IMG/VR virus record: IMGVR_UViG_3300042887_003245
Location: 1 to 21,151 of that record
DNA length: 21,151 bases
Source: a virus
Strand: one strand, 5' to 3'
Shown here in pieces: positions 1-21,046 of the stretch. A program made the position numbers and the translations under genes. The notes beneath the pieces were generated by a model. The model was not told the origin of the DNA, did no database searches, and saw only the letters and a list, made by a program, of their open reading frames with translations. Position 1 is the first letter of the stretch; every line of letters starts with the position of its first letter.

Positions 1-3000
1 GGCTATTCGTCGATGCCGGCCAACGAGGCGCTTGGCGTCAGTACGTTGTATCTGTACTGGCCTGGCTGTCCGTACTCAAACGGGCAGGTCGTGTTCGTGT
101 CGCTGACGACGTTTGAGGTGTCGGAGGAATGTCCGCTGTACATCGATGCGCATCCGGTCGATATCGTCACCGCGATCTGGACGAATGCGCGGATCCTGTA
201 CGACCCGGCCGCCGCGTGGATTGCAGCGGTGCGAAGCCTGATTGGCGACACGGTGCGGCTGGCGCTGCGGTTTGGAAAAGCGCCAATGATCGACGAGTTT
301 TTGCCGTCGGCTATTTATGGACCGTTTGGCGTGGCGGAGCGCACCAATAGCGCGGGAATGCTCGAGCTCGTGCCGACGCGGATCAAGACGACGACGGCGC
401 CGGCGTTGACCTTGACGGCGAATAGCTTGCGCGGCGCGGATGAGGTGGTGTTTGACGTGGATGAGAGCACGGCCGTGAGCGCGATCGCCCTGACGCAGCA
501 GGTGCTGTCGCCGACGTTCTATGTGGCGGCCAATCGCAACAACAGCGTGCAAAGCTCGCAGAATAGCGGGCCGGTGGGCGGCGTCACGACGCAAACGATC
601 ACGCAAACGGCGCAGTATATCGACGCCAGCCTTGCGGTGTTTGCGGGCAAAACGCTGACGTATACGGTGCCTGGCATGATCCACACGTCGGCCGACTTTG
701 TGCCAAACACGCAAACGCAGCTTGACGCGATGGCGATCGGCACGTTTGATCGGTTCGGGCGCGGATGCCCGAGCGCGGAGGTGGCCGTGCTGGCGACGGA
801 TGCGGTCGCGGCGGCATTGGTCGGCGATGAGGTGTACCTCGAGGCGCCGCACTACCCGAACAAAGGCTACCGGATCGGCGAGAGCACGGTCGGGGCGCGC
901 ATCATGCAGGTCGTGCGGCGGACGGAGACACCGAGCGGGCCGATGTTGCGGTTGCTGGACTCGGGGCTTGCGGCGCAGCCGGTGTCACCGGCGGTCACGC
1001 TCACGATCGCGCAGAGCCCGACGGCGGCGAGCAGCATTGCCCGATTCACGATTACGAACGCAGCCACGATTAACGCGACGGGCGTGTTGCAGGTGCGGGT
1101 GGAGCAGGCGACGGGCACCGTGACGCCGACGGGCAACGGAGCCGACTTCGCGTTGTACGCGGCAGGGCAGGTGCCGACGGGGGCGGTGGACCTTCCGCCG
1201 GTGGTGACGCCTGGCGTGGTGCAGTATGTGCGGGCGCGGACGGAACAGGCGGGGCGGCGGCCGTCGGCGTGGTCGGCGTGGGCGTCGGTGACGCTGGCAA
1301 ACCTGCCGGCGGTATCGGGGCTGACGTCCTCAAGCATACGGCAGACGGCCGCAACGATCTCGTGGACCAATACCTCAACGGCGTTGCCGCTGGCGATCTT
1401 CGCGTATCAGGGCGCGTCGGCACCGGCGAATTGGTCGCGGTTCCGGGTCGCGACGGTGCCGGCTGGCACGACCTCGACGATTGTGCGGGCGCTGTCGGGG
1501 CCGTCGGTCGCGTGGACGCTGGGCGTGGCGTACGAAAGCGCGCAGAGCATTGGGGCGGTGACGGCCGTGTCGTTGACGACGAATAGCACGCTGGATACGC
1601 CGTCCCGGCCGGCAGGGCTCGCGGTTATTCCTGGCGTGGATGACGCGACGTTGACGCAAGGCGTGGCGCTGGCGTTGTGGGCGTCGGATCAGACGTTGGA
1701 TATCGTCATTCAGCGGAGTACGGTCAGCGGATCCGGATTTGCGACCATTGCGACCGTAGCGGGATCGACGCCGGTCTATGTGGATCAGCTGCCACGCAAC
1801 GGCACGACCTACTATTACCGCATCGCGCATCTGCTGGGCGGCTTTACGACCTCAAGCTATACGCCGGAGGTGTCGGCGATTGCTCGCGGCGTGCCGCCTG
1901 GCGTGGAGCGGCCGGGGGCGGTGGCGCCGGTGGTGCAGGTGGCGACGTCGGAGGTGGGCACGACGGCGACGGTTACGCTGACCATTACGGATCCGCAGTC
2001 GCGGGTCACGCTGGTGCGCTTCCGCGAGCAAACGAACGGCGGCGGGTGGTCGGGCTACACGATCGATACGACGGTACCGTATGCGTATTCGGCCACAATT
2101 CCGGCGTCGGGATTCGTGCAGATCGAGTACGAGGTGCAGGGCTATAACGCGGCCGGCACGGCGTCGCAGGTGTTGGCGGGCGGGGTGGAATCGTTTGACG
2201 CGGATTCGTCGGCGTCGTTAGTGTCGGTGCTCGGGACGTTCACGGCGGCTGGCGTGTTTGATCTGGCGGTCAATGCGGATTCAGATACGCAGTCGATTCG
2301 CGTGGCAACGAGCACGGTCAGTCAACCGACGCTCGGGACGACGCAGGTGGCGCCGGCTATTAATCAGCGCAGCTATGTGACGAGCCTGGCGGGTCCGTTT
2401 TTGAGCGGCGCGACGGTGTATGTGTCGGTACTGGCGTATACGGGATTGAGCGGCGGCGGGCTTGAGTCGGCGCTATTTACGTATCAATTCACGCGGGACA
2501 GCACGGCGGCCGTTGCGTTAACGGCACGGGCGCGGGTGACATCGACCCTCGCTACCACGCAAGTGGTGCGAGTGGCCGTCGCAGATCCGTTGTCGGCGGT
2601 GGTGGCGGTGTCGTCCATTACCGGGTCCGCGGTGACCACGAGCGGCCCGCATAATCAGACCGGATCGTTTACGGTGGTGATTGCCGGCAATAGCAACGCG
2701 GCGTATAACGGGACGTGGACGGCGATTTATGTGAGCCCGACCATTTTTAGCATTAGCGTGAGTTCGACCACGGGCACTGGCGGGACGGCGGCGCCGCAGA
2801 ACTACGTGACGATCGCGTATAGCGTGACGGGGCTGGCGACACCGACGCAGGTCGGCGGGGCGGCGTTGCCGTCGCCGGTGACGGTGACACCGCAAGTGAC
2901 GCTGAGTGAGGCGGCGGGCACGTTCTACGACTTTGAGTTGGCGCGGCCATCTTCGACGCAGCCGCCTGGGCGCATTAATTTCACGGTGACGGCCACCAAT

Positions 3001-3588
3001 CGGTCGCCGGCGGCGCCAGCGGCATCGGTGGTGGCGCAAGATATCATTGGGCCGAGTTTGCAGGTCGTGACCACGCCCGGCGCCTCGAGCTATTCGTTGG
3101 TCATTACGTATACGGGTACGATTACCTATGTGCTAGACGGCGTCACGCAATCGGTCAGCGGGTGGACGTCGCCGCATACGGAAACGGTGACACGCGGCGA
3201 GATCGGGGCGAATACGAAGGTGGCCGCTTTCTCGGTGTTGCGGGACAGCTCGACCACGTCGGAGTCGGTCAATATTCCGCCAAAGGATATCACGTCCGCG
3301 TCAATTATTATCGGCACGCAAACGGGTGACGACACCACGGAGACGTACGAGTTCGATTGGACGACCTCCGGATTCCCAAGCGGCACCACGTACGATCTGA
3401 ACTACCGCACGGTCACGACCGCTGGCGACGTGGAGGAAGGCTATTTCACGGGGCTGACGGTGACAAATCAGGACGTGGTGAGCGGCTTTAATATTGGCGC
3501 ATCGCCGACGTATCAGATGACCGTATCGGCGGTGCTCAGTGGTTCGGTGCTGATGTCGCGGAGCCGGACTGGAACGTTCCTAACCTAA
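1..3588 (+). CDS. Tail/baseplate protein with fibronectin type III domains (5' partial)
   Basis: The frame is open from base 1, so the gene starts upstream and about 1195 residues are visible. The first 330 or so residues look like part of a tail-tip or baseplate hub, with a segment reading HPVDIVTAIW near residue 50 of the visible part. From about residue 430 onward the chain is built of Thr/Ser/Val-rich beta modules. At least two resemble fibronectin III domains: roughly 430-525, and 530-625, the latter ending in a typical TTYYYRIAH strand. Further modules near 650-730 and 870-925 have an NGTWTA turn seen in phage tail modules. This fits a distal tail protein of the gpJ/host-specificity kind that contacts the host. 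The exact role (hub, tip or fibre) is inferred. It ends 18 bases before a glycosyltransferase, which might act on it or on the host surface. Confidence 0.75.
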   Translation, partial: GYSSMPANEALGVSTLYLYWPGCPYSNGQVVFVSLTTFEVSEECPLYIDAHPVDIVTAIWTNARILYDPAAAWIAAVRSLIGDTVRLALRFGKAPMIDEFLPSAIYGPFGVAERTNSAGMLELVPTRIKTTTAPALTLTANSLRGADEVVFDVDESTAVSAIALTQQVLSPTFYVAANRNNSVQSSQNSGPVGGVTTQTITQTAQYIDASLAVFAGKTLTYTVPGMIHTSADFVPNTQTQLDAMAIGTFDRFGRGCPSAEVAVLATDAVAAALVGDEVYLEAPHYPNKGYRIGESTVGARIMQVVRRTETPSGPMLRLLDSGLAAQPVSPAVTLTIAQSPTAASSIARFTITNAATINATGVLQVRVEQATGTVTPTGNGADFALYAAGQVPTGAVDLPPVVTPGVVQYVRARTEQAGRRPSAWSAWASVTLANLPAVSGLTSSSIRQTAATISWTNTSTALPLAIFAYQGASAPANWSRFRVATVPAGTTSTIVRALSGPSVAWTLGVAYESAQSIGAVTAVSLTTNSTLDTPSRPAGLAVIPGVDDATLTQGVALALWASDQTLDIVIQRSTVSGSGFATIATVAGSTPVYVDQLPRNGTTYYYRIAHLLGGFTTSSYTPEVSAIARGVPPGVERPGAVAPVVQVATSEVGTTATVTLTITDPQSRVTLVRFREQTNGGGWSGYTIDTTVPYAYSATIPASGFVQIEYEVQGYNAAGTASQVLAGGVESFDADSSASLVSVLGTFTAAGVFDLAVNADSDTQSIRVATSTVSQPTLGTTQVAPAINQRSYVTSLAGPFLSGATVYVSVLAYTGLSGGGLESALFTYQFTRDSTAAVALTARARVTSTLATTQVVRVAVADPLSAVVAVSSITGSAVTTSGPHNQTGSFTVVIAGNSNAAYNGTWTAIYVSPTIFSISVSSTTGTGGTAAPQNYVTIAYSVTGLATPTQVGGAALPSPVTVTPQVTLSEAAGTFYDFELARPSSTQPPGRINFTVTATNRSPAAPAASVVAQDIIGPSLQVVTTPGASSYSLVITYTGTITYVLDGVTQSVSGWTSPHTETVTRGEIGANTKVAAFSVLRDSSTTSESVNIPPKDITSASIIIGTQTGDDTTETYEFDWTTSGFPSGTTYDLNYRTVTTAGDVEEGYFTGLTVTNQDVVSGFNIGASPTYQMTVSAVLSGSVLMSRSRTGTFLT

Positions 3589-3606: not shown

Positions 3607-4713
3607 ATGCGTTTACATGTGTTGGGCATCCCGCATACGGTCACCCATCCCGAGTGGTCGCATTGCGCGTTCACCCAAAAGGTGCGCCGCTTTGCGCCGA
3701 TGATGCGGCCGTATGGATGGGAGGTGATCCACTACGGGGTCGGCGGGTCGGTGACCGGCGCGACCGAGGACGTGGTGCTGATGGATCAGGACGAGCATGC
3801 GGACTTGCTCGGGCATCCGTACCGGCATCATGAACTCTACGGCGCGGACGCGGTGGACGGATCCGCGTTGTATCGGCAGTGGAATATGTACGCACGGACG
3901 GAGCTGCAGGAACGCGTCGTGCCTGGCGACCTGATCCTGCTCCCGTTTGGGCATGCGCACGCGGCGGCGGTGCGGGGGTTGCCGGTGTTGTCGGCCGGCG
4001 CGGGCGCGATCGAAAGCGGGATTGGGTACTATGAGACGTTGCTCCCGTGGCGGATCTGGGAAAGCTACGCGGCGCGACATGCGGCGATGGGGCGCGAGGG
4101 TCGGCACGGCGTGTCGATGGAATCGTCACGGCTCGAGTTCGTGGTGCCGAATTACTACGCGGCGAACGAATGGCCGAGCACGGTGGGCGACCGATCGACG
4201 GCGCCGGTGGTGTACATGGGCCGGCTGACCGAAGGCAAAGGCATCGCGACGGTGTTTGACGTGGCACGGCGGCGGCCGGACGTGCGGTTTCAGGTGATGG
4301 GGCAGGGCAATGCGTACGCTTGGGACGTGCCGGATAACGTGGAGATATTGGGGTCGATGGGGCCGGAGCGGGCGGCCGTGTTGGGCGCGGCGCGGGCCAT
4401 TATCGCGCCGAGCCGGTATGTGGAGCCATTCTGCGGGTCGGTGGTGGAGGCGCAGTTGTGCGGCACGCCAGCCATTACGAGCGACTTCGGGGCGTTTGCG
4501 GAGACGGTGCAACACGGCATTACCGGGTTCCGGTGCCAGACGGTGACGCAGTTCACGGCGGCGGTGGATCGGGTGCTGTCGTTGGACCGGCCAGCCATCG
4601 CGAAGCGGGCGCGGCGGCTGTATGCGATGGAGCGGGTCGGCCGGCTGTATCACGACGCGTTTGAGGTCGTGCGGGAGCGGCTGGCCGACGGCGGGTTCCC
4701 GAGCGGGTGGTGA
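3607..4713 (+). CDS. GT-B fold glycosyltransferase, GT4-like
   Basis: A protein of 368 residues with the C-terminal half of a GT4 glycosyltransferase. The strand and loop VVYMGRLTEGKG near residues 200-212 begin the nucleotide-sugar-binding domain. The E-x7-E motif is present as E273 and E281 in EPFCGSVVE, followed by AQLCGTPAITSDFGAFAE, which normally binds the sugar nucleotide. The N-terminal half is unlike standard bacterial GT4 enzymes and has HTVTHPEWSHCAFTQKV near residues 10-26. The ATG is preceded by GAGG at 8 bases. The gene sits between the tail protein and the holins. It may glycosylate a virion tail protein, a host surface glycan or DNA; the position favours the first two, but the substrate is unknown. 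There is no signal peptide or membrane segment, so it should be cytoplasmic. Confidence 0.8.
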   Translation: MRLHVLGIPHTVTHPEWSHCAFTQKVRRFAPMMRPYGWEVIHYGVGGSVTGATEDVVLMDQDEHADLLGHPYRHHELYGADAVDGSALYRQWNMYARTELQERVVPGDLILLPFGHAHAAAVRGLPVLSAGAGAIESGIGYYETLLPWRIWESYAARHAAMGREGRHGVSMESSRLEFVVPNYYAANEWPSTVGDRSTAPVVYMGRLTEGKGIATVFDVARRRPDVRFQVMGQGNAYAWDVPDNVEILGSMGPERAAVLGAARAIIAPSRYVEPFCGSVVEAQLCGTPAITSDFGAFAETVQHGITGFRCQTVTQFTAAVDRVLSLDRPAIAKRARRLYAMERVGRLYHDAFEVVRERLADGGFPSGW

Positions 4714-5081: not shown

Positions 5082-5396
5082 ATGCGTAATCTGATTTTGA
5101 CGGCGGCGGTGCCGCTCCTGCTTGGGCCGCTGACGTTTGTCGTCATGCAGCAGCTGAAGATCCTGAGCACGATGGTGGACACGCTGCCGGTCACGGCCAA
5201 GCGGTTTGCGGTGGCGGCCATTGCCGTGTTGCTGACGGTGGTGTCCAAGGCGGCGGGGGTGGAGCTCGCATGTGATGCCAACGCGGTCGAATCCTGCTTG
5301 ACGACCTTAGATCAGGACGCGGTGCGGGCGGCGCTGGCGACGGGCGTTGCGTACCTGCTGCACGTCGGGCGCAAGAAAACGACGCCGGATGCCTAA
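5082..5396 (+). CDS. Putative holin, three hydrophobic segments
   Basis: A protein of 104 residues with hydrophobic segments at about 3-23, 42-60 and 82-96 and a basic C-terminus (RKK near the end), the layout of a class I holin. The ATG has GAGG about 7 bases upstream. The 3' end overlaps the start of the endolysin gene by 8 bases, giving translational coupling of holin and endolysin. Between the second and third segments lies a polar loop with two cysteines (C64, C72 region) that could form a disulphide if exposed to the periplasm. A holin role is inferred from size, topology and neighbours, not from a recognised family signature. Confidence 0.65.
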   Translation: MRNLILTAAVPLLLGPLTFVVMQQLKILSTMVDTLPVTAKRFAVAAIAVLLTVVSKAAGVELACDANAVESCLTTLDQDAVRAALATGVAYLLHVGRKKTTPDA

Positions 5397-5907
5397 GTTC
5401 GGGGCGCTGCCGGTCCCGGTGGCGGTGGATCGGCGGCTCGAGGTGCTGGCGCCGGCGTTCCGGCGGGCAATCGACGCGGTGCTCAAGGCGGTGCCGGACG
5501 CGGTGGTCGTGGAAACACTGCGAACGAACGACCGCCAAGCGTATTTGCACGGCTTCGGCCGCCAGTACGATGACGGCCGGGGGATCGTCACGCATAGCGA
5601 GACGGCGCTGGATACGTGGCACCACTACGGGCTCGCGGCGGATCTGGTGCATAAGGTGAGCCGGTGGGGCGCGCCGGTGAGTTGGTGGCAGACGCTTGGC
5701 GCGGCGGCGCGAGCGCATGGGCTCGTATGGGGCGGCGACTGGTCGTTTCGGGATTATCCGCACATTCAGTGGGGCGCGCCGATGCGGCGGAGCCCATCGC
5801 CGTCGGCGGCGGCGATCCTGGCGGCGGGCGGGTTGCCGGCGGTGTGGCGGGCCGTCAAGGCGGCCGATGTTGCTGTTGACACCGGCCGCGATGCGCATAC
5901 ATTGTAA
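5389..5907 (+). CDS. Endolysin, M15-family peptidoglycan peptidase
   Basis: A protein of 172 residues from the ATG at 5389, the first start that keeps the overlap with the holin short. It carries the zinc-peptidase M15 signature. TWHHYGLAAD at residues 76-85 corresponds to the S-x-H-x-x-G-x-A-x-D motif, giving ligands H78 and D85. The third ligand is H125 in YPHIQW, with an acidic residue just upstream (D122 or the GDW aspartate) as candidate general base. LRTNDRQAYLHGFGR near 44-58 is also typical of phage VanY-like and L-alanyl-D-glutamate peptidases. It should cleave peptide cross-links in peptidoglycan at lysis. No signal peptide and no recognised wall-binding domain is seen; the last 45 residues are alanine-rich. 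Release therefore probably depends on the preceding holin. Confidence 0.85.
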   Translation: MPKFGALPVPVAVDRRLEVLAPAFRRAIDAVLKAVPDAVVVETLRTNDRQAYLHGFGRQYDDGRGIVTHSETALDTWHHYGLAADLVHKVSRWGAPVSWWQTLGAAARAHGLVWGGDWSFRDYPHIQWGAPMRRSPSPSAAAILAAGGLPAVWRAVKAADVAVDTGRDAHTL

Positions 5908-5974
5908 GGCATCGGTCGAGGCAATGCTCCTCCCGACGGTGTCCGCCTAGCATAGCAGAAGCGTAAGCGACTGC

Positions 5975-6008
5975 CACAAAGCCCTCAGAGTGCGCTGGGG
6001 GCTTTGTG
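5975..6008 (+). terminator. Strong hairpin after the lysis genes, likely transcription terminator
   Basis: A 14-base arm, CACAAAGCCCTCAG (5975-5988), pairs with CTGGGGGCTTTGTG (5995-6008) with one T:G wobble around a 6-base loop. It lies about 70 bases after the endolysin stop and at the border between late (lysis) and early genes. The run of U expected of a simple intrinsic terminator is poor: CTATCCGGTATTT follows. It may therefore be weak, factor-assisted, or an RNA-processing or stability element. Confidence 0.6.
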
Positions 6009-6388
6009 CTATCCGGTATTTACTTTCTGGGCGGGTCGCGGTACTGTAGAGGCGAGGTGACGGGAAACGCACTTGCCGTCACTTGGTCGGGCCTAGTTTC
6101 GCTCTCCCGACTGCGCTATGCGGACCCTGCGCACATCAATCCTGAGCGTCCCGGATCGAGCGTTCTACAAAAGTCCCAGCTCTGCCGCACTGCAACTGGG
6201 CCGGTCATCATGCTCGAAGCCGCGTCACACGGCACCGTATCCCTGCCGGCACGTACCCTCTGAGGGCGTCACTTGCACTGCCAAGCAAGGACGGGACAGA
6301 GCGCGAGGGATAATCAGTCCGCAGAAGCTGGGCACACATCACCTTTGAGACATCCTTAAAAGCAGGGGATGACCGGGAATGTGTTGGC
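6009..6388. other. Non-coding region with several inverted repeats
   Basis: No convincing gene is present. Frames are short, start with GTG or lack ribosome sites, and do not resemble proteins. Perfect inverted repeats are visible: GTGACGG/CCGTCAC (6057-6063 with 6076-6082), GTCGGG/CCCGAC (6086-6091 with 6106-6111) and CCCAG/CTGGG (6175-6179 with 6196-6200). A weaker CTTGC/GCAAG pair lies near 6273-6290. The first two hairpins are adjacent. The base composition looks more even than in the flanking genes. It could hold a small RNA, a replication origin or a control region. I see no tRNA cloverleaf. Confidence 0.4.
6019..6047 (+). promoter_or_regulatory. Possible weak sigma-70-like promoter
   Basis: TTTACT (6019-6024) and TACTGT (6042-6047) are separated by 17 bases, directly after the terminator hairpin and just before the two adjacent stem-loops. 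The match to consensus is only partial (4/6 and 3/6). It could drive a small structured RNA from this region, but chance cannot be excluded. Confidence 0.2.
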
Positions 6389-6422
6389 CTATTGCATTTT
6401 GTAGGTATAGGCGGTATTCTAG
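6389..6422 (+). promoter_or_regulatory. Early promoter P1
   Basis: CTATTGCA (6389-6396) contains a -35-like TTGCAT. After a 17-base spacer comes TATTCT (6415-6420) within GTATTCTAG (6414-6422). The same two blocks at the same spacing occur at 8299-8332, which is the main support. The site ends about 45 bases before the first gene of the early module. The predicted start of transcription, near 6427, falls on a short inverted repeat. Confidence 0.6.
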
Positions 6423-6425
6423 GGG

Positions 6426-6440
6426 GTGCGCTAGACGCAC
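6426..6440 (+). promoter_or_regulatory. Inverted repeat at the P1 transcription start
   Basis: GTGCG-CTAGA-CGCAC forms a perfect 5-base-pair dyad with a 5-base centre, beginning 6 bases after the -10 box. It is followed by a pyrimidine-rich TATTCTTTTCTCT. It could be an operator for a repressor or a 5' RNA hairpin that stabilises or attenuates the early transcript. It is absent from the second promoter. Confidence 0.3.
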
Positions 6441-6466
6441 TATTCTTTTCTCTAGGCGGAGATACC

Positions 6467-6655
6467 ATGATGGACGACATCAACGACCTGATCGCCAGCG
6501 CCAGCGACGCGCAGCTCGCGCACCTGGCGCTGTTCTTTGCGGACTGGATGCAGACGCCGGACGCGGACGACGCGGTACGTCGTGCGGCGTTGCGGATCGT
6601 GCAGGAGATCCGGTTTCGTGCGGTTGAGGACCGCATGATGGAGGTGGCGGCATGA
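6467..6655 (+). CDS. Small hypothetical acidic protein, first early gene
   Basis: A protein of 62 residues starting at the ATG at 6467, with GGAG 5 bases upstream. The longer reading from 6392 would begin inside promoter P1 and is rejected. The sequence is acidic and probably all alpha-helical (INDLIASASDAQLAHLALFF, then a charged C-terminal helix). No family is recognised. It is the first gene after P1 and overlaps the next gene by 4 bases, so it is likely made very early in infection. First-position early proteins in phages are often host take-over or anti-defence factors, but nothing in this sequence shows such a role. Confidence 0.6.
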   Translation: MMDDINDLIASASDAQLAHLALFFADWMQTPDADDAVRRAALRIVQEIRFRAVEDRMMEVAA

Positions 6656-6963
6656 GCGGCGACGTCGCGCTCGTACAGCACCGGCTTGAGACGATGGCGC
6701 ATCGGCTGAAGCAGCTGCGGAGCGGCACGACCGCTGCCGCGTTGCACCTCGAGTACATGCTTGAATGGTGCGATGATATGGTCGCGGCCGCCGAGTCGGG
6801 TATGACGACCGAGGCGTTTTTTTACGCGCTGAGCGACACGCGGGCGGCCGTCATTGCGGCGCAAATTGATCTTGAGGACGCCGATCACGCGATCGAGACG
6901 GCGCAGCTGCGCGCCGCGCACACTGTCCGGCTTGTGCCGGGCTTCACCACATCGGGGAAATAG
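6652..6963 (+). CDS. Hypothetical helical protein
   Basis: A protein of 103 residues starting at an ATG that overlaps the previous stop (ATGA), with GGAGG 7 bases upstream. It is predicted by eye to be almost entirely alpha-helical, with charged and alanine-rich heptad-like stretches around residues 5-50 and 55-90. No motif or family is recognised. It lies directly upstream of the ERF recombination gene, so a link to recombination or to host take-over is possible but unproven. It contains a run of seven T at 6817-6823 in a GC-rich context, read in frame as Phe-Phe. Confidence 0.6.
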   Translation: MSGDVALVQHRLETMAHRLKQLRSGTTAAALHLEYMLEWCDDMVAAAESGMTTEAFFYALSDTRAAVIAAQIDLEDADHAIETAQLRAAHTVRLVPGFTTSGK

Positions 6964-6966
6964 CAC

Positions 6967-7692
6967 ATGAAACATAGTGACAGCATCGCGGCGATCGCGC
7001 CGGCGTTGGTCAAGGCGGGCGCGGCGCTCGGGCCGGTCGTCAAGGACGCGACGAACCCGGCGTTTCGGAACAAGTACGCGACCCTCGACGCGATCATGGA
7101 GCAGGTGCGGCCGGTGCTCGCGGCGCACGGGTTGTGCGTGCTGCAAGGCGTGACGCATCCGGAGACGGTGGACGGCCGCGTGATTGGGCTGTCGGTCGAG
7201 ACGCGGCTCCTGCACCTGTCGGGCGAGTGGGTCAGCACGGTGGTGACGCTGCCGGTGGAGAAGGCGACGGCGCAGGGCGCGGGATCCGCGATCAGCTACG
7301 GGCGCCGCTACGGGTTGTCCGCGATCCTCGGGTTGACGGCCGAGGACGATGACGGGAACGCGGCCAGCACGCGGCCGGCGGCGTCGGCGGCACCGGCTCG
7401 AGCGTCTGCGCCAGCGGCGGCACCGGCCGTGCCGGCGGGCCAGCGGATGCACGATCGCGTGCCGGAGACGCCGGCGTCGGCGATGTCGCTCGCGAAAGCG
7501 GAGACGGTGGAACTCAAGGGCAAGCGGCTGGCGGATATGGAGCCGGAGCGGCTGGCGTCGGTGCGGGCGTGGGCGGTCGAGAAGGCGAACAACTACGTGC
7601 TCGCGGCGTGCGATGCGATCATGGCGGCGCGGGCGGCCGGCGGTGATGAGGACGACGACCACGCGTTTGACGATGACCAGGTGCCGTTTTGA
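6967..7692 (+). CDS. erf: ERF-family single-strand DNA annealing protein with SSB-like C-terminal tip
   Basis: A protein of 241 residues. The first 135 residues match the ERF superfamily: NPAFRNKYATLDAIMEQVRP near 36-55, then ETRLLHLSGEW near 78-89, then QGAGSAISYGRRYGLSAILG from residue 103. ERF proteins anneal complementary single strands for phage recombination, genome circularisation or replication restart. Residues about 135-165 form an Ala/Pro-rich linker and the rest a short helical region. The chain ends in an acidic tail finishing DDDQVPF, strikingly like the C-terminal tip of bacterial SSB (DDDIPF type) that recruits repair and replication proteins. No separate SSB gene is seen in the window. 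The ATG has a GGGGA site 8 bases upstream. The stop overlaps the next start (TGATG). Confidence 0.9.
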   Translation: MKHSDSIAAIAPALVKAGAALGPVVKDATNPAFRNKYATLDAIMEQVRPVLAAHGLCVLQGVTHPETVDGRVIGLSVETRLLHLSGEWVSTVVTLPVEKATAQGAGSAISYGRRYGLSAILGLTAEDDDGNAASTRPAASAAPARASAPAAAPAVPAGQRMHDRVPETPASAMSLAKAETVELKGKRLADMEPERLASVRAWAVEKANNYVLAACDAIMAARAAGGDEDDDHAFDDDQVPF

Positions 7693-8111
7693 TGCACTGC
7701 ACGCGGAGACTGCCGTCACGTCACACGACGTGCGGCAGCGCGCTGGATCCGGCGGGACGGTGCGAACGGTGCGACCGGCGAGCGGCCGGTGATTGCTGGG
7801 CATGTGGGGCGCGGCGCACGAATAGCCGAGGGCGCGGGTTGCTCTGCGCGGCGTGTGCGGCGGCGGAGGTGGTGGCGTCGCAGGCGCGATACGCGGCGCG
7901 TGAGGACGCTCGAGCACGGCGGCGGGAGCGGGCGGCGGTGGTCAACCAACGGCCGGAGGTCAAGGCGCGGCGGGCACGGCTGCTCTACGCCTGGCGTCAC
8001 GCGGATCCGGAGCGGCTGCGCACGATGGCCGCAAAGGCGCGGGCGCTGTATAGCAATCGGGTACAACATGCGACCGGCGCGAAGGCGTCACGGCGGGTCA
8101 ATGAATCCTGA
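7692..8111 (+). CDS. Zinc-ribbon protein, putative DNA-binding
   Basis: A protein of 139 residues from the ATG that shares its first base with the ERF stop. The N-terminal third holds three CxxC pairs, C24/C27, C35/C38 and C52/C55, plus C3, H11 and C14, enough for one or two zinc sites. After residue 60 the chain is very rich in Arg/Ala with a motif YAWRHADPERLR near 97-108. That style is common in small phage nucleic-acid-binding and HNH-type proteins, but I see no HNH catalytic His-Asn-His set. Function is unknown; a role in binding DNA or RNA is inferred from the charge and the zinc motifs. The coupling to the ERF gene suggests a joint role. Confidence 0.65.
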   Translation: MHCTRRLPSRHTTCGSALDPAGRCERCDRRAAGDCWACGARRTNSRGRGLLCAACAAAEVVASQARYAAREDARARRRERAAVVNQRPEVKARRARLLYAWRHADPERLRTMAAKARALYSNRVQHATGAKASRRVNES

Positions 8112-8298
8112 CGCAACGGCAACCCGCGAGGCGGGGCAACAGTTGGCGGAGGCGGCGCGCACGATGCGTAAAGGCGACACGGTGCGGGCGCTGCATTGGG
8201 TGTGGTTTCGGTGGCGCTCGGCGCCTGATCCGTACGAGCGCGAGGTGCAGGCGGCCGCGACGCGTGTCCTGCTGGATGTGCTAAAGGCTGAACAGTAG
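8101..8298 (+). CDS. Small hypothetical protein
   Basis: A protein of 65 residues from the ATG at 8101, overlapping the previous gene by 11 bases. The upstream extension of this frame is an arginine-rich artefact of the zinc-ribbon gene. The protein is probably helical, with an aromatic patch HWVWFRW near residues 32-38. It is the last gene before promoter P2, so it probably ends the P1 transcription unit or is read through. No family is recognised. Confidence 0.5.
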   Translation: MNPDATATREAGQQLAEAARTMRKGDTVRALHWVWFRWRSAPDPYEREVQAAATRVLLDVLKAEQ

Positions 8299-8332
8299 CT
8301 ATTGCAGATTATATATATATGTAGTATTCTAG
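8299..8332 (+). promoter_or_regulatory. Early promoter P2
   Basis: CTATTGCA (8299-8306) and GTATTCTAG (8324-8332) repeat the P1 blocks at exactly the same distance (17 bases between TTGCAG and TATTCT). The spacer is an alternating AT run (ATTATATATATATGTA), unusual in this GC-rich genome and likely to be flexible. The site lies in the only gap within the early module, 38 bases before the next start codon. Confidence 0.65.
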
Positions 8333-8369
8333 CGGACGCGGGCAGACACCTTACACACGGAGCATGGTC

Positions 8370-8555
8370 ATGGAGCAGGTGCGGCATTTGCTGGATGAGA
8401 CATACGAGCACGTCCCGCTGCGCGAGACGGCAGGGCGCTTTCCGGTGTTGTGCGGGCAGGTGGTCGGGATCGAGGCGGTGACGCGGATTGCGCGCCGGCC
8501 GATCTGCGCGGATTGCCTGACGGCGGCCAATTTGCGCGAGGCGGTGCGGTCATGA
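8370..8555 (+). CDS. Small cysteine-containing protein
   Basis: A protein of 61 residues. I prefer the ATG at 8370 over the one at 8364 because GGAG is then 7 bases upstream instead of 1. It has C28 in VLCGQVVG and C47-x2-C50 in ICADC, so a zinc knuckle using three cysteines plus another ligand is possible. It is the first gene after P2 and overlaps the next by 4 bases. No family is recognised. Confidence 0.6.
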   Translation: MEQVRHLLDETYEHVPLRETAGRFPVLCGQVVGIEAVTRIARRPICADCLTAANLREAVRS

Positions 8556-12241: not shown

Positions 12242-12800
12242 CGCGACACTTCCGGCGCAGCTAGACGCGGCCGCCGACGGCGCGTTTTCCGGTAAGCTGG
12301 CCGACCCGGCAGACACGCTGACGAAGCGCGGCGGGAAAGGGATCGTCGTCTACGAGGGCCAAGAGTATGACCGGCTCGCATGGACCCGTCGGTGTGCCGC
12401 GCTTGGGTACACGCTGGCGGCTGGGGAAGGAGCGATCCTCAACGCGGCCCTAGTGGAAGTTGAGAAGGAGCGGGATGCGCTGCGGGCTAAGCTTACACGC
12501 TACAAGGGCAAAACACGGCGACTGTACGCGATGTTGAAAGGGGAATTACAAGGGCTGCGCCGTGATCGAGCGAGGGTGGATTGGCTGTCAGATAGCGCGC
12601 AGCTTGAGGCTATCGGGATTGACGATGTGGGCGAGGCTGGCGGATGCGTTGGACTGGACATGTACGAGCACGCATCAATCGTCGCTGACGAGCGAGGTAA
12701 CGAGGGCGACCTTACGGACACCGACTTGAGAAGAGGGTTCCGCCGCATGATCGACGCCGCGATGGCGGTGCAGCCGACACCAACCGGAGACACACCATGA
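12234..12800 (+). CDS. Hypothetical phage protein with coiled coil and C-terminal RVDWL region
   Basis: A protein of 188 residues. Residues about 70-115 form a charged helix, probably a coiled coil (ALVEVEKERDALRAKLTRY). It is followed by DRARVDWLSDSAQLEAI and, near the end, LRRGFRRMIDAAMA. The pair of an R-x-DWL segment and a terminal IDAAM helix recurs in many phage proteins of unknown function, which I recall as a C-terminal module rather than a named family. It starts inside the previous gene (8-base overlap) and its stop overlaps the next ATG. Confidence 0.6.
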   Translation: MTDATLPAQLDAAADGAFSGKLADPADTLTKRGGKGIVVYEGQEYDRLAWTRRCAALGYTLAAGEGAILNAALVEVEKERDALRAKLTRYKGKTRRLYAMLKGELQGLRRDRARVDWLSDSAQLEAIGIDDVGEAGGCVGLDMYEHASIVADERGNEGDLTDTDLRRGFRRMIDAAMAVQPTPTGDTP

Positions 12801-13465
12801 TTACCGCCGACCAAGAGCAGTCAATTCGCGCCACCCTCGCCGCGATGCCGGAACTCGCAGTCGGCGTCGGCACCGCAGAAAAAGCGTGCAGCATCGCCGC
12901 GCTCAATCTCGCGCTGACCGGCACGCTGACCGACAAGGTACCGGACTGCATGAGCCGCGTGATTGGCCGATGGATCATCGGCGTGCAGGACCGGATGCCC
13001 GCGACGATCCGCGATAGTGCCGCGTGGCGTGAGTTGTTGGTGCTGTCGGCTGGCACAGGGCGCGACCACGAAGAAGAGCGGCAAGCACTGGTGATGTCGT
13101 GGATGTGGCACGCGCTGGCGCTGGTGCAGCCGCGTGCGGACGAGAGAGGATACGGCGCGGCGTGGGCGACGATGTTGCGCGAGCGCACGCCGCAGGCAGC
13201 CGCATACGCATACGCAGTCGCAGCCGCAGACGCAGACGCAGCCGCAGCCGCAGCCGCAGACGCAGCCGCAGCCGCAGCCGCATACGCATACGCATACGCA
13301 GCCGCAGCCGGAGCCGCAGCCGCAGCCGCAGACGCAGCCGCAGCCGCAGCCGCAGCCGCAGCCGCATACGAAGAAGCAGTCGCATGGGCAACGGTTGACC
13401 CCGTGGGGCTGCTATGGTGGCTCGTCGCGGTCACGGACGAGCGGGCGCTGGCGGTGCAGCCGTGA
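12797..13465 (+). CDS. Alanine-rich protein with hexamer-encoded AA/AY/AD repeat
   Basis: A protein of 222 residues with three parts. The N-terminal 130 residues form an ordinary folded-looking helical region ending in a Trp-containing helix (MSWMWHALALV near 103-113). Residues 134-191 are composed only of Ala with Tyr, Asp, Val or one Gly, encoded by 29 six-base units. The C-terminal 31 residues (EEAVAWATVDPVGLLWWLV and on) again look folded. The repeat would be largely alpha-helical. The style loosely recalls Ala/Tyr/Asp-repeat phage proteins and putative Imm-5-like immunity proteins, but I cannot assign a family. GGAG lies 7 bases before the ATG. The stop overlaps the next GTG start, so the frame must stay intact for coupling. 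Confidence 0.65.
   Translation: MITADQEQSIRATLAAMPELAVGVGTAEKACSIAALNLALTGTLTDKVPDCMSRVIGRWIIGVQDRMPATIRDSAAWRELLVLSAGTGRDHEEERQALVMSWMWHALALVQPRADERGYGAAWATMLRERTPQAAAYAYAVAAADADAAAAAAADAAAAAAAYAYAYAAAAGAAAAAADAAAAAAAAAAAYEEAVAWATVDPVGLLWWLVAVTDERALAVQP
13196..13369 (+). repeat. Tandem 6-base repeat, 29 units, coding
   Basis: Twenty-nine consecutive GCA-NNC units without interruption. The consensus is GCAGCC; variants are GCATAC (6 units), GCAGAC (4), GCAGTC (1) and one GGAGCC. Every first codon is GCA (one GGA) and every second is GCC, TAC, GAC or GTC. All length changes by whole units keep the reading frame. The pattern points to expansion by strand slippage or unequal recombination, followed by point changes limited almost entirely to the second codon of each unit. 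Confidence 0.95.
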
Positions 13466-16494: not shown

Positions 16495-16740
16495 ATGACA
16501 CGAGATGTACTCGGCAACACGATTGCTGACCGGATCCGGATGGTGCGCCGCGAGCGCAAGGACAGTCAGTCAAGCTTTGCGGTCAAGGTGCAAAGCCAGA
16601 TTAAGCCGATGCGCGAGGTCACCAATATCCACATCTCGCGTTACGAGTGCGGGACGTGTACGCCGCCGCTGGAGATGATTCTGGCGATGGCGCAGGCGGG
16701 CGACGTGGCGCCGGGCTGGCTGGCGTTCGGGGACATCTGA
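16495..16740 (+). CDS. Cro/C1-type (XRE) helix-turn-helix regulator
   Basis: A protein of 81 residues with the XRE fold pattern: helix 1 IADRIRMVRRERKDSQSSFA, a turn and second helix around residues 28-40, then the recognition-like segment NIHISRYECGTCTPPLEMILAMAQA, typical of lambda-repressor-like domains. There is an insertion between helices 2 and 3 (QSQIKPMREV) compared with the shortest family members. No dimerisation or cleavage domain is present, so it resembles Cro more than a full repressor. It lies just before the terminase genes, with a 9-base direct repeat downstream. It may control the early-to-late switch. Confidence 0.7.
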   Translation: MTRDVLGNTIADRIRMVRRERKDSQSSFAVKVQSQIKPMREVTNIHISRYECGTCTPPLEMILAMAQAGDVAPGWLAFGDI

Positions 16741-16770: not shown

Positions 16771-17085
16771 ATGCCACCGAAACGGCAAATGCCGAAAGGC
16801 CGACTGTTTGTGAAAGGGCAAAGCGGCAACCCGAACGGCCGGCCAAAGCTGCCAGACTTGCGCGAGGCGATGGCGAAGGTGCTTGCGCACGAAGAGGGCG
16901 GGATGACCGCGCTTGAGGCGACGCTCAACGCGTTGCGCGCTAAGGCGTTAGACGGCGACATTCGGGCGGCCGAGGTGCTGCTCGATCGGGCGTTCGGCAA
17001 GTCGGTGCAGGTGGCTGACATTACGTCGGGCGGTGAGCCGATCCGTGTGGTGCCGCCGATCGCGTGGACTGACGACGCGGGATGA
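16771..17085 (+). CDS. terS: Small terminase subunit, DUF5681-type
   Basis: A protein of 104 residues opening with KGQSGNPNGRPKLPDLREAM (about 15-34), the hallmark of the DUF5681 group found beside phage large terminases. DGDIRAAEVLLDRAFGKSVQ near 60-80 is also typical. It would recognise phage DNA and load the packaging motor. AGGGGG lies 4 bases before the ATG. The stop overlaps the large-terminase start (ATGA). Confidence 0.78.
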   Translation: MPPKRQMPKGRLFVKGQSGNPNGRPKLPDLREAMAKVLAHEEGGMTALEATLNALRAKALDGDIRAAEVLLDRAFGKSVQVADITSGGEPIRVVPPIAWTDDAG

Positions 17086-18338
17086 GTAGCGCGGAAGCCG
17101 TGGCCGGCGCTGAGTCGGTCACGCTGCTGCGCCAGTACCGGCCGCTGTTTACGGCGCGGCCGGCGTGGCGGTATGCGTTTATCACCGGCGGGCGCGGATC
17201 CGGCAAAAGCTTCCACGTCGCGCTGGCGTTGCTGAACTTGACGTACGAGCCGGGCCACGTCATCCTGTTTACGCGGTTTACGATGGTGGCGGCCGATGTG
17301 TCGATCATTCCGGAGTTCCGCGAGAAAATGGAACGGCTCGGCGTGGCCGACGACTTTGCCATCACCGCCCGCGAGATCGTCAACCGCAAAACGAACAGCC
17401 GGATCCTGTTTCGGGGCATCCAGACCTCGAGCGGCAACCAGACGGCGCGCCTTAAGTCCATCCAAGGTGTCACGACGTGGGTACTGGATGAGGCCGAAGA
17501 GCTGGTGGATGAGCGGACCTTTGAGACGATCGACCTCAGCATCCGCCATAAGGAATTGCCGAATCGCGTCATTTTGGTGCTGAATCCGGCCAGCACCGAG
17601 CATTTCCTGCATCGCATGTTCGTGCAGACGCGCCGGCTCGACACGCTGTATGTGCATACGACGTGGCACGACAACCGCGACAACCTCTCCGCCTCCTTTA
17701 TAGAGCGGGCGGCGCAGACCGAAGCGACGGCGCCGGAGCGATATCGGCGGATCTTCCTTGGCGAGTGGGGCACGGACACCGGCGGGCTGCTCTGGACGCG
17801 GCCGGATCTGACTCGCGCACGGCTGGACGTTGGGCCGACCGCCTGGCATCGCGTAGTGGTGGCGATCGACCCCGCGGTCACGGCGAAGGCCACCAGCGAC
17901 GAAACGGGCATCATCGTCTGCGCGGTGGACAAAGAGAAGCGCGGGTATGTGCTTGAGGATCTAAGCGGCCGGTATTCCCCGAACGATTGGGCGTCGGTGG
18001 CGCTGACGGCGGCGCGGAAGTACTCGGCGGCGATCGTGGCGGAAACCAATCAGGGCGGCGATATGGTGACGGCCGTCATCCGGTCGCTTGGCGATCGGGC
18101 GCACGGGGTCCGGATCGTGGACGTCAGGGCGAGTCGCGGCAAGCTGGCACGGGCCGAGCCTATCTATAGTATGTATCAGGAAGGACGCGTGTTTCACGTG
18201 GGACCGTTCCCGGCGCTTGAGGCGCAGATGCTGCAATTCAATCCGGACGCCGTGGGGCAATCGCCTGACCGCGTGGACGCGTTGGTATGGGGGCTGTCGG
18301 CGCTGATGCTGAAGCCATCGACGCCGTTCGTGGTGTAG
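17082..18338 (+). CDS. terL: Large terminase subunit (ATPase and nuclease)
   Basis: A protein of 418 residues, normal for the PBSX/Terminase_3 group. The N-terminal ATPase has Walker A GGRGSGKS (36-43) and Walker B VLDEAEE with D136/E137. A coupling-motif-like VLNPAS follows near 165. The C-terminal RNase H-like nuclease has VAIDPAV with D263, AETNQGG with E321, and DRVDALVWG with D396/D399. All catalytic acids are present. It drives DNA into the prohead and cuts the concatemer. The start overlaps the small subunit stop by 4 bases. A 137-base gap with inverted repeats separates it from the portal gene. Confidence 0.93.
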   Translation: MSSAEAVAGAESVTLLRQYRPLFTARPAWRYAFITGGRGSGKSFHVALALLNLTYEPGHVILFTRFTMVAADVSIIPEFREKMERLGVADDFAITAREIVNRKTNSRILFRGIQTSSGNQTARLKSIQGVTTWVLDEAEELVDERTFETIDLSIRHKELPNRVILVLNPASTEHFLHRMFVQTRRLDTLYVHTTWHDNRDNLSASFIERAAQTEATAPERYRRIFLGEWGTDTGGLLWTRPDLTRARLDVGPTAWHRVVVAIDPAVTAKATSDETGIIVCAVDKEKRGYVLEDLSGRYSPNDWASVALTAARKYSAAIVAETNQGGDMVTAVIRSLGDRAHGVRIVDVRASRGKLARAEPIYSMYQEGRVFHVGPFPALEAQMLQFNPDAVGQSPDRVDALVWGLSALMLKPSTPFVV

Positions 18339-18449: not shown

Positions 18450-18475
18450 TTTTGGTCCGCACTGGGGGGTTCAAC

Positions 18476-21046
18476 TTGCCGGACAACAGCACGAGCGACA
18501 GCCGGATCCGTCGCGTTTGGGATATTCTGCGCGGTCGCGGCGCGGTCGGTGCGGGATCGCGGGCGGTCATGATGCCGGGATATCCGAACATGCCTGGCGG
18601 GGCCGGTATGTCGCTGGTGCGGACGGCGAACCCGCAAGAGTTCAAGCCGGAAGGCGCGACGATCCGCGTCAAAGGCTTTAGCGGGCATCCGGTTGTCCAC
18701 GCCTGTATCCGCGTCGTGGCCGATATTGTGGCGTCCGTGCCGCTCGTGGTGCTGACCGAGCGTGGCAATAGCGAGAGCCGCGTCGGTCCCGAGCATCCGC
18801 TGCAGCGACTGCTTGACTATCCGGGGCCACGGATGACGGCGCGGCAGTTTCGTGCGCGGTATGCGGTCGATTTCATGGGGTATGGCAACAGCCTCTTTCA
18901 GATCGAGCGAAAGAACGGCGTCGGGCTGCCGATCGGGCTTCGGCCGATCAATGCGGAGAGCTTGCAAACGGTCTGGGTCGATGAGGAAGGCGACCCGCGC
19001 CGGTACGATTACGGGTCGTGGTCGGGGGTCGTGGTGCAGGTGCCGGTCGAGGACATTTTGCATTTCCGCGACCTTGATATGCCAAAGCCGTTTGTGCCGG
19101 ACGTGTTCGGCTTCCCTCGAGGGGCGACGGCGATCGCGTCGATGGCGGCCGACATGGAGGCAACCAACTACGTGCGGCAGGTCGTCACCAATGACGGCAC
19201 GCCGACGTTCGCGGTGCTGCTGGCCGATGAGGCGACGCAGGATGACGCGACGGCGATGCAGGATCGCTATAAGGCGCGGGTCGTGGACCGGGGCAAGCGC
19301 GGCACGCCGGCGTTCTTCGGGAGCGTGCGCGATATTAAGCCGCTCGGGTTCACGTTGTCGGACCTTGAGTTTCCGGACCTGCGCCGCGTGAGCCGTGAGG
19401 ACATCTGCGCGGCGTATGGCGTGGATCCGCGCATGGTCGGGATCGCGTCGGCCACGTCGGACGCAGGGCTATCCGGTGCGCAGTACGCGGAAGCGCGGAT
19501 GCGGCTGGTGCAGCACACGATTGAACCGATGCTGTCGGCGATTGAGGACGAACTAAACCATTGGCTCGCGCCCGAGTTCGGCAACGTCTTTGTGGCGTAC
19601 GATGTCGACGTGTTGCGCGACTTGGTGGAGAACGACGACGAAACGAGCAAGCGCGTGCAGGCGGAGTTCGGCGCGTCGCTGCGCACGTTTGAGGAAGCGC
19701 GCCGGGCGTTGAAGCTGCCGGCCGTCCCGGTGCCGACGGATGCGCTCCAGGTCACGTCGGGCAGGCAGCTGGTGCCGGCGGCGGTCGCGGTGATTGATCC
19801 GAACGCGACCGCGCTGCCGGCGCCGGTGACGGACGTGGTGCCGCCGACGCCTGGCGGGGCGCTGGAAACGGAAGCCGAAGAGTTGGAGGACACGGAGGAT
19901 GAGGCGCTCGAGGGGCTGGCCGAGAGCAGGACTCTAGCGGCGTATGTCGTGCGGTCGTTTACCGAGAACGCGATGTCGGGCGAGCAGGTTGAGGCGCTCA
20001 CCGAACTGCTGGAAATGGTGATGACGGCCGAGCTCCCGGCGGCAGCGGTGGTGCAGGTCATCTTGGCGGCGTTCCCGCAGCTGAAGCCGGCGGCGGTGCA
20101 GCAGATGGTCGATGCGTGCGTGGAGTTCGCGGTGAAGCCGCGACCGAAGGACGACGACGAGGATGAGCCGGAGGAGGAGCCGGAGCCGGAGTCGCTCGAG
20201 GTCGCGGCGGCGCCCTGGTGGGAGGAAATGGAAGCGGCCGGCACGTTGCAGGACGATGCGCGGTGGCAGTACTGGAAGCGGGCGATGGATGAGCTCGACG
20301 CCGAGGAAGGCGAGTACTATCGGGCGGCGCGGAACACGTTTGCGGCCAATGCGCAGTCGGTCGATGCGCTGTTTGCGGCGTACACGAAGGAAGCGGCGAC
20401 CGCGACGGCGGCACGGCAGCGCAAAATGCTGCGCGAGATTGATCGGCTGATTGCCACCAACTACGGCGCTAAGGGCGAGTATTACCGCGCTTGGAAGGCG
20501 GCGTACGAGGGGCTTGTGTCGCAAACGTATATCCAAGGCGCGAAGCAAGCGGCCGGGTTGAACTTCAACTTTTCGTTGCAGAGCCCGGAAGTGTTGCGCC
20601 GGATCGATACGCGGGTGTCACGGCTGGCCGAACTGATTGGCGAGGACACGGCGCGGCAGGTGACGGCCGCGATTCGTGCGTCTGAACTGTCAGGGTTCTC
20701 CATCGCGGAGACGGCGCGGCTGGTGCAGCAGTCGGTGTACGGCGAGAACATGACGGACGTCCGGGCGACGCGGATTGCGCGGACGGAAGCCGCCGGCGCG
20801 ATGTCGCAGGGGTCGTGGGATCAGGCGCGTGAACTCGGGATCTTTCAGAGCAAAGAGTGGGTCGCGTTTGAGGACGGCAAGACTCGCGAGACGCATTTAG
20901 CGTGTATGGGTCAAGGCCGCATCCCGATGGACGACGCGTTTTCCAACGGGCTGATGTATCCGTTAGATCCGGCGGGCGATGCTGCCGAGGTCATCAACTG
21001 TCGCTGTCAGCCGCTGTTTTACGATGAGCCGGTGCCAAATACATGA
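18476..21046 (+). CDS. Portal protein fused to MuF-like minor head protein
   Basis: A protein of about 856 residues. The first 420 residues match HK97-type portals: GHPVVHACIRVVADIVASVP near 71-90, and FMGYGNSLFQIERKNGVGLP near 133-152. Two acidic, probably flexible stretches follow (about 464-476 and 559-574). The C-terminal part is a MuF-like domain with RTEAAGAMSQGSWDQA from residue 769 and the closing INCRC (840-844). The portal forms the dodecameric DNA gate; MuF-like proteins are minor head proteins linked to head assembly. No ATG fits the start. TTG at 18476 has GGGGGG 6 bases upstream, and a TTG at 18452 is the alternative. Fusion in one chain replaces the usual two adjacent genes. 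Confidence 0.88.
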   Translation: MPDNSTSDSRIRRVWDILRGRGAVGAGSRAVMMPGYPNMPGGAGMSLVRTANPQEFKPEGATIRVKGFSGHPVVHACIRVVADIVASVPLVVLTERGNSESRVGPEHPLQRLLDYPGPRMTARQFRARYAVDFMGYGNSLFQIERKNGVGLPIGLRPINAESLQTVWVDEEGDPRRYDYGSWSGVVVQVPVEDILHFRDLDMPKPFVPDVFGFPRGATAIASMAADMEATNYVRQVVTNDGTPTFAVLLADEATQDDATAMQDRYKARVVDRGKRGTPAFFGSVRDIKPLGFTLSDLEFPDLRRVSREDICAAYGVDPRMVGIASATSDAGLSGAQYAEARMRLVQHTIEPMLSAIEDELNHWLAPEFGNVFVAYDVDVLRDLVENDDETSKRVQAEFGASLRTFEEARRALKLPAVPVPTDALQVTSGRQLVPAAVAVIDPNATALPAPVTDVVPPTPGGALETEAEELEDTEDEALEGLAESRTLAAYVVRSFTENAMSGEQVEALTELLEMVMTAELPAAAVVQVILAAFPQLKPAAVQQMVDACVEFAVKPRPKDDDEDEPEEEPEPESLEVAAAPWWEEMEAAGTLQDDARWQYWKRAMDELDAEEGEYYRAARNTFAANAQSVDALFAAYTKEAATATAARQRKMLREIDRLIATNYGAKGEYYRAWKAAYEGLVSQTYIQGAKQAAGLNFNFSLQSPEVLRRIDTRVSRLAELIGEDTARQVTAAIRASELSGFSIAETARLVQQSVYGENMTDVRATRIARTEAAGAMSQGSWDQARELGIFQSKEWVAFEDGKTRETHLACMGQGRIPMDDAFSNGLMYPLDPAGDAAEVINCRCQPLFYDEPVPNT

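Follow-up and report, generated by a model that had tools for sequence, protein, structure and literature searches.

The window analysed here, the 21,151-base virus record IMGVR_UViG_3300042887_003245, contains two sites, named P1 (the first) and P2 (the second), that are likely to be sigma-70-type promoters of the early, or replication, region and to be two members of a matched promoter set belonging to the phage itself. On the plus strand, CTATTGCA-N17-GTATTCTAG is found at 6389-6422 (P1) and again at 8299-8332 (P2), with both blocks exact and offset by 25 bases. The grounds for reading these sites as promoters are their sequence, their position, their conservation and the matched sets present in relatives, and from these we infer transcription, the use of sigma-70 and the early timing. 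The promoters are ordinary in kind, and a structured RNA that adjoins P1 is the more unusual object.

Bacterial sigma-70-type promoters are used by phage early genes, and P1 and P2 resemble them in having two hexamers, a spacer of 17 bp (inside the 16-18 bp range), a -10 box of the form T-A-N-N-N-T and a place ahead of a Shine-Dalgarno site; in addition, several relatives keep TTGACA. The -10 hexamer of both sites, TATTCT, has T1, A2 and T6 of TATAAT, and both sites are on the correct strand and at a suitable distance from the Shine-Dalgarno site. The original prediction, which had been made from the letters of the window, placed the two blocks at 6389/6414 and 8299/8324 with a 25-base offset and a 17-base spacer, in gaps before gene starts and with no further copy in the window. 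All of this was reproduced exactly on re-check: P1 lies in the gap from the end of the structured RNA (~6388) to the ATG at 6470, P2 lies in a 65-bp gap from the stop at 8298 to the ATG at 8364 or 8370, and a scan of the window with the two-block pattern returned no third copy even when 3 mismatches were allowed. The description of the two as near-identical promoters holds for the 17 anchored letters, to which the identity is confined, and fails for the 17-nt spacers and the leaders, which differ. The -10 box had also been called extended with AG. This was a misuse of the term, because an extended -10 is a TGn upstream of the box; unlike in promoters where it could offset a weak -35, it is absent at both sites, where GCGG and GTAG precede TATTCT. 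The pattern GTAnnnTAG around the -10 does recur, at sites of L013, L014, L016, L017 and L023.

P1 and P2 both recur in the closest relative, L012 (the same contig as L003), where they hold the same positions with respect to the Erf gene. The P2 gap is identical to that of L012 at 64 of 65 positions, compared with 155 of 197 for the upstream gene and 174 of 192 for the downstream gene; the P1 gap is identical at 80 of 86 positions, compared with 145 of 185 for gene 1. A search with Erf returned 21 related viral loci, and 12 of these (L012-L023, nine distinct phages by sequence) form one GC-rich family. The original reading of the two sites as promoter-like is supported: P1 heads the early operon, P2 lies within it, and at the P1 place of several of these relatives sigma-70-like boxes are found. 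Four of them have TTGACA as the -35 box, namely L013 (TTGACA-N17-TACTGT), L014 (TTGACA-N16-TATTGT), L016 (TTGACA-N17-TATTGT) and L023 (TTGACA-N17-TATTCT, with GTATTCTAGGG at the place of the P1 -10 box), while other boxes are found in L017 (TTGACG-N16-TATACT), in L022 (TTGATA-N16-TACATT) and, by eye and without the final T, in L019 (TTTACA-N17-TATATC). The arrangement TTGACA-N16-18-TANNNT was found at 15 places in 8 of the 12 relative records, some of which are duplicates of one phage, and at 3 places in reversed controls. Furthermore, a matrix was built from 14 promoter-like sites of the relatives, with the window and L012 excluded, and was scored on both strands; its top four window positions were, in order, 8302 (P2), 5876, 6019 and 6392 (P1). 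The matrix thus supports the sites by rank and does not prove them.

A predicted stem-loop would form at the very start of the P1 transcript, and the other P1-type leaders that were folded also have a hairpin near the start. When nine such leaders were compared with shuffled sequences, 2 to 98 of 200 shuffles folded as low, and only one leader (L016) fell below 5% of GC-matched genomic 40-mers. Leader hairpins were therefore rejected as a signal by folding energy alone, and only the recurring place of the hairpins counts.

Matched putative early promoters within phages

In seven related phages, the early promoters form matched sets that are particular to each phage. When the first and second promoters of these phages were compared, the matched cores were more alike within a phage than across phages: with both blocks, a value as high was reached by 1 of 5040 permutations, by 1 of 720 without the window, by 1 of 120 without the window and G009, and by 1 of 120 without the window and G008. 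For the -35 block alone, the corresponding numbers were 8 of 5040 and, without the window, 8 of 720. The rows left out of this test were G001, which is a near-copy of the window, five records that duplicate or are closely related to ones that were kept (G002, G003, G004, G006 and G010), and all promoters of G005 and G009 beyond the second. The matched sets are also visible as exact repeats on the coding strand. For instance, CTATTGCA and GTATTCTAG each occur twice in the window and in G001, CTGTTGACATTA occurs twice in G012, CTCTTTACAAAA twice in G008, CTTGACAGTT twice in G005 and in G002, and CTCTTGCCATTAT five times in G009, across six cassettes. G007 has a 19-nt hairpin leader, GCGCCGTAGCCGCGGCGCC, twice, and the promoter pair of G011 is one letter apart.

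The proposal of a dedicated early promoter class was thus partly right, in that it holds as a phage-own matched set and not as a class defined by CTATTGCA/GTATTCTAG. In IMG/VR, CTATTGCA/GTATTCTAG was found in 9 stretches that fall into 2 groups (the closest relative, and 8 contigs that belong to an unrelated group), compared with 2 stretches for the reversed pattern, and a widespread class was rejected on this count; with a looser two-block pattern there were 12 stretches, including 4 new ones (L033-L036). In the unrelated phage group (L001, L002 and L004-L009; GC 0.48-0.52, alike flanks), CTATTGCA-N18-GTATTCTAG stands directly before an open reading frame (ORF) that by eye resembles a gene of the Cro/YdaS helix-turn-helix (HTH) type.

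Repeated elements ahead of several genes are also known from cluster K mycobacteriophages, in the form of start-associated sequences (SAS) and extended SAS (ESAS). According to the accessible parts of two reports (PMC3203893, PMC12699233), the ESAS consensus differs between subclusters and its role is unsettled, each ESAS is an imperfect inverted repeat of 17 bp that, in the authors' view, is poorly supported as an RNA hairpin, and DNA-binding proteins have been proposed for the sites. As far as these sources go, the elements described here are similar in standing before several genes, alike within a genome and different between groups, and G009 also has a start-linked sequence, ACCTGATCGGGAGAACAG. 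They are unlike SAS/ESAS in that the element reads as -35 and -10 boxes, behind which relatives have a predicted RNA hairpin, and in that P1 and P2 share neither leader nor start sequence. A cassette with a shared start-linked sequence before several genes is present in G009 and in G012, where that sequence is repeated behind both promoters, and is not found in the window; because P1 and P2 lack a shared leader, the pair was not filed as a SAS/ESAS-like cassette. The six near-identical cassettes of G009 (L153), at 7181, 7973, 8516, 10339, 10847 and 11293, each consist of a promoter, a GGTGT-type hairpin and the start-linked Shine-Dalgarno sequence, and ACCTGATCGGGAGAACAG, or a version one letter off, also occurs without a promoter at 7588 and 8290.

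How the sites may be read

If P1 and P2 are promoters, P1 (6392-6420) and P2 (8302-8330) would be read by the main RNA polymerase of the host, with transcription starting at about 6427 and 8337. P1 would stand at the head of the early operon and drive the Erf-like recombination gene, and P2 would re-boost the next gene block from inside the operon. The sameness of the promoters within a phage and their difference between phages would most simply result from cassette copying or from selection for one common reading machinery, which would be the host holoenzyme, possibly with a phage regulator touching the -35 region.

A number of observations weigh against this reading. In contrast to sigma-70 promoters, the -35 hexamers TTGCAT and TTGCAG match TTGACA at 3 of 6 positions and so are not close to it, as the original prediction had also remarked. 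P2 does not have the leader hairpin typical of the P1-type leaders, and its leader folds unusually weakly, with 197 of 200 shuffles reaching an energy as low or lower. A generic promoter scanner lists neither site, the matrix scores of the two sites (17.7 and 15.2), taken singly, do not exceed chance when compared with the top scores of 30 resampled windows (mean 13.5, maximum 20.1), and the second-ranked position, 5876, falls at the end of the endolysin gene. L020/G009 fits only with another register of the -10 box (CATTAT), and in its first promoter stretch CTATTGCA is found at an offset of 22 rather than 25. When the window and G008 are left out, 8 of 120 permutations are as high for the -35 block alone; furthermore, the sites for the permutation tests were chosen by eye, and these tests do not separate cassette duplication from co-evolution. 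The first promoter stretch of L020, at about 2626-2660, also has CTATTGCAT, which lies 22, not 25, bases ahead of the -10 block and may be there by chance.

The letter identity between P1 and P2 alone is not significant either, being expected by chance for a pattern chosen post hoc. Shuffling gave an expectation of 0 matches for the fixed two-block pattern, which had been chosen in this way, and when the offset was left free (8-40), 30 first-order resampled windows contained 0-11 (mean 4.0) pairs of an exact 8-mer and an exact 9-mer at equal offset. The statistical weight of the shared letters was rejected on this basis. The real window contains 478 such pairs, many of those listed coming from a repeat tract near 13.2 kb; at 13172-13417, within ORF 12797-13465, a tract of copies spaced 12 nt encodes an Ala-rich stretch. 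The case for promoters rests on place and conservation, because the letter match alone is not evidence. With about four coincidences per resampled window, matrix scores within the resampled maxima and a generic scanner that misses both sites, P1 and P2 could be two AT-rich gaps that share 17 letters, one or both without promoter function. This is quite improbable, however, in view of the conservation of both gaps in L012 above the flanking genes, the promoter-like sites at the P1 place in more distant relatives, and the right strand and Shine-Dalgarno distance at both sites.

Alternatively, the shared letters may be mainly an operator or activator site for a phage-coded regulator that covers the -35 and -10 regions, such as the 81-amino-acid (aa) HTH protein encoded at 16495-16740, which has weak repressor-family matches (E about 1e-4). 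The sameness within phages and the difference between them would then reflect co-evolution with that protein, by analogy with what the accessible text on the cluster K phages proposes for ESAS DNA-binding proteins. The match within the phage does extend beyond the hexamers, to a CTA ahead of the -35 and to a G and an AG that precede and follow the -10, respectively; the sets differ between phages, and the deviation from TTGACA is alike at both window sites. We nevertheless regard this explanation as rather unlikely, because GTAnnnTAG is found around the -10 in several relatives, so that these letters need no phage-specific factor, because no palindrome common to P1 and P2 was established, and because cassette duplication explains the sameness in G009 and G012 equally well. 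Recognition by a phage-coded sigma factor or RNA polymerase instead of host sigma-70 is most improbable. Although the -35 is non-consensus at both sites and 6 of the 12 relative records have weak Sigma70_r4 (PF04545) matches, all six are below the Pfam cut-off and none of the 12 records has a match above it, the one sub-threshold match with a listed neighbourhood sits between nuclease-like and ParB-like ORFs by eye, and several relatives keep sigma-70 consensus boxes. For a single-subunit phage RNA polymerase, PF00940 matched 0 of the 12 records, which may be incomplete, and did not match any control genome either. In these 12 records a phage-coded sigma factor or RNA polymerase thus found no support.

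A probable structured RNA ahead of P1

The stretch immediately upstream of P1 very probably encodes a real structured RNA that is not in Rfam. It is present in the window and in all 12 close-relative records (9 distinct phages). In an alignment of ten sequences, a structure of 72 pairs forms in 89.4% of cells, compared with 29.6-43.5% when the partners are slid by 1-3 columns, and 37 of the 72 pairs are changed on both sides. The covariation score was reached by 0 of 500 shuffles and the count of further pair types by 28 of 500, in tests that lean toward the structure since it was predicted from the same alignment. The alignment also folds 8.4 standard deviations below 20 column shuffles, and in every one of the ten sequences each of the six frames of the region is interrupted by one or more stops. 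A frame of 85 aa at 6006-6263 was rejected as a gene, because in L012 it is broken by stops, as are two of the three frames of L013, the third giving no like product; the region is that of the RNA.

A covariance model of the 5' part of the RNA matched 12 of 12 Erf-family records with E of 2.9e-23 or better, which shows presence and is not an independent test, as 9 of the records had been used in building the model and the other three are near-copies. Among 29 other records (28 terminase relatives of 4.4-21.9 kb and one bacterial bin), for which 85 of 2665 first-look candidates were scored, it gave one weak match of 19.9 bits (G034); a second, equally weak match was found in G008. The RNA was not found in 47 more distant records (47 of 64 listed loci were searched, with no positive control). 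There was no Rfam 15 gathering match for the RNA in 9 sources, and at a loose threshold no weak match fell in the RNA stretch and one fell elsewhere in the window; two sub-threshold Rfam matches in L138 (E 0.43 and 1) were read as chance. A pattern for the RNA was found 0 times in GTDB genomes, in a narrow test, since the divergent copies in L019, L020 and L022 likewise escape that pattern. Of two blastn queries against named phages, one gave a 40-base match (E 0.3) in one phage (two records) and the other gave none, and the accessible text of the open-licence literature searched contained no description of the RNA. It resembles GOLLD and ROOL, as the accessible part of PMC12286853 describes them, in being a large structured phage-encoded RNA of unknown function. 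In contrast to GOLLD, many members of which exceed 800 nt according to the same text, it is about 330 nt long and has no Rfam gathering match; GOLLD and ROOL are reported there to lie often near transfer RNA (tRNA) islands, and ARAGORN listed no tRNA in the window.

In the records that were printed, the layout by eye is a terminator-like hairpin, a promoter-like site, the RNA and then P1, and in the window this series follows the endolysin gene. At the equivalent terminator place, the T-run is longer in G002 and G005. The rank of the site at 6019 comes from a matrix whose training set included the corresponding sites of L013, L014, L016 and L017. As there is no terminator after the RNA in the window, transcription could also read through it into the early genes. 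In a larger scheme, the RNA would be a new class of structured phage RNA, transcribed from its own promoter between the lysis genes and the early genes; it would head an early-control module with P1 as its downstream edge and act on early transcription, while the promoter set of each phage would co-evolve with a trans-acting factor which that phage supplies. This scheme seems to us doubtful. A further TTGAC(A/G/T)-N16/17 site followed by TACATT, TAGATT or CATATT, then by a short stretch and, by eye, a terminator-like hairpin, is found at 5876-6007 of the window and at G001 1242, G002 8262 (both reverse-complemented records), G005 25934, G007 9959, G011 13787 and G012 10688. These places may possibly mark another, small RNA upstream of the large one.

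Gene layout and significance

The order on the plus strand is an ORF at 13-3588 that is tail-like by eye, a glycosyltransferase gene (3607-4713), two small ORFs, an endolysin gene (5347-5907), a gap and the early genes, which encode the Erf-like annealing protein, a helicase, DNA methyltransferases and a polymerase-exonuclease-like protein; the large terminase gene is at 17082-18338. The family-library scans covered the proteins of the window other than those of ORF 13-3588 and ORF 18452-21046. In L012 only the second ATG of the first early gene is kept, and the ATG at 8364 of the small gene behind P2 is not. The coordinates of the features discussed are collected in Table 1.

Table 1. Predicted features around P1 and P2, in window coordinates.
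Feature	Position	Strand	Remarks
Terminator-like hairpin behind endolysin gene, upstream of RNA	5976-6007	+	by eye; weak T-run; not in hairpin listing
Promoter-like site TTTACT-N17-TACTGT ahead of RNA	6019-6047	+	rank 3 by relatives' matrix
Structured RNA, ~330 nt	6054-6388	+	aligned part 6084-6388; 5' end inferred from promoter-like site; no terminator at 3' end
P1 -35 box TTGCAT	6392-6397	+	within CTATTGCA 6389-6396; relatives have TTGACA, TTGACG, TTTACA or TTGATA at equivalent place
P1 -10 box TATTCT	6415-6420	+	within GTATTCTAG 6414-6422; spacer 17; predicted start ~6427
Predicted stem-loop GGTGCG-CTAGA-CGCACT	6425-6441	+	5' end of P1 transcript; by folding; hairpin near start also in other folded P1-type leaders
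First early gene, 61 aa	6470-6655	+	no Pfam or PHROG match; Shine-Dalgarno GGAG 6458-6461
Erf-like single-stranded-DNA-annealing protein, behind P1	6967-7692	+	Pfam ERF 3.3e-24; PHROG 155 2.1e-39
P2 -35 box TTGCAG	8302-8307	+	within CTATTGCA 8299-8306; top-scoring window position by relatives-only matrix
P2 -10 box TATTCT	8325-8330	+	within GTATTCTAG 8324-8332; spacer 17; predicted start ~8337
Small gene behind P2, 61 aa from ATG 8370	8370-8555	+	Shine-Dalgarno GGAG 8359-8362

The closest matches in named phages were 34% identity for the terminase and 48% over 54% of the protein for Erf. The terminase is 68% identical to that of L124 (JAHCLE010000013.1), a 38,190-bp contig in a Burkholderiales metagenome bin; this was not taken as proof of a Burkholderiales host, because the contig may itself be a (misbinned) phage, and neither one pattern nor a partial model scan found the RNA in that genome.

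Two predicted transcription starts and an operon layout are now placed on this uncultured phage family. The family offers a natural example of early promoters that are matched within a phage and drift between relatives, so that their co-evolution with a phage regulator can be tested. Furthermore, if the RNA is expressed, the large structured RNAs known from phages gain a further family.

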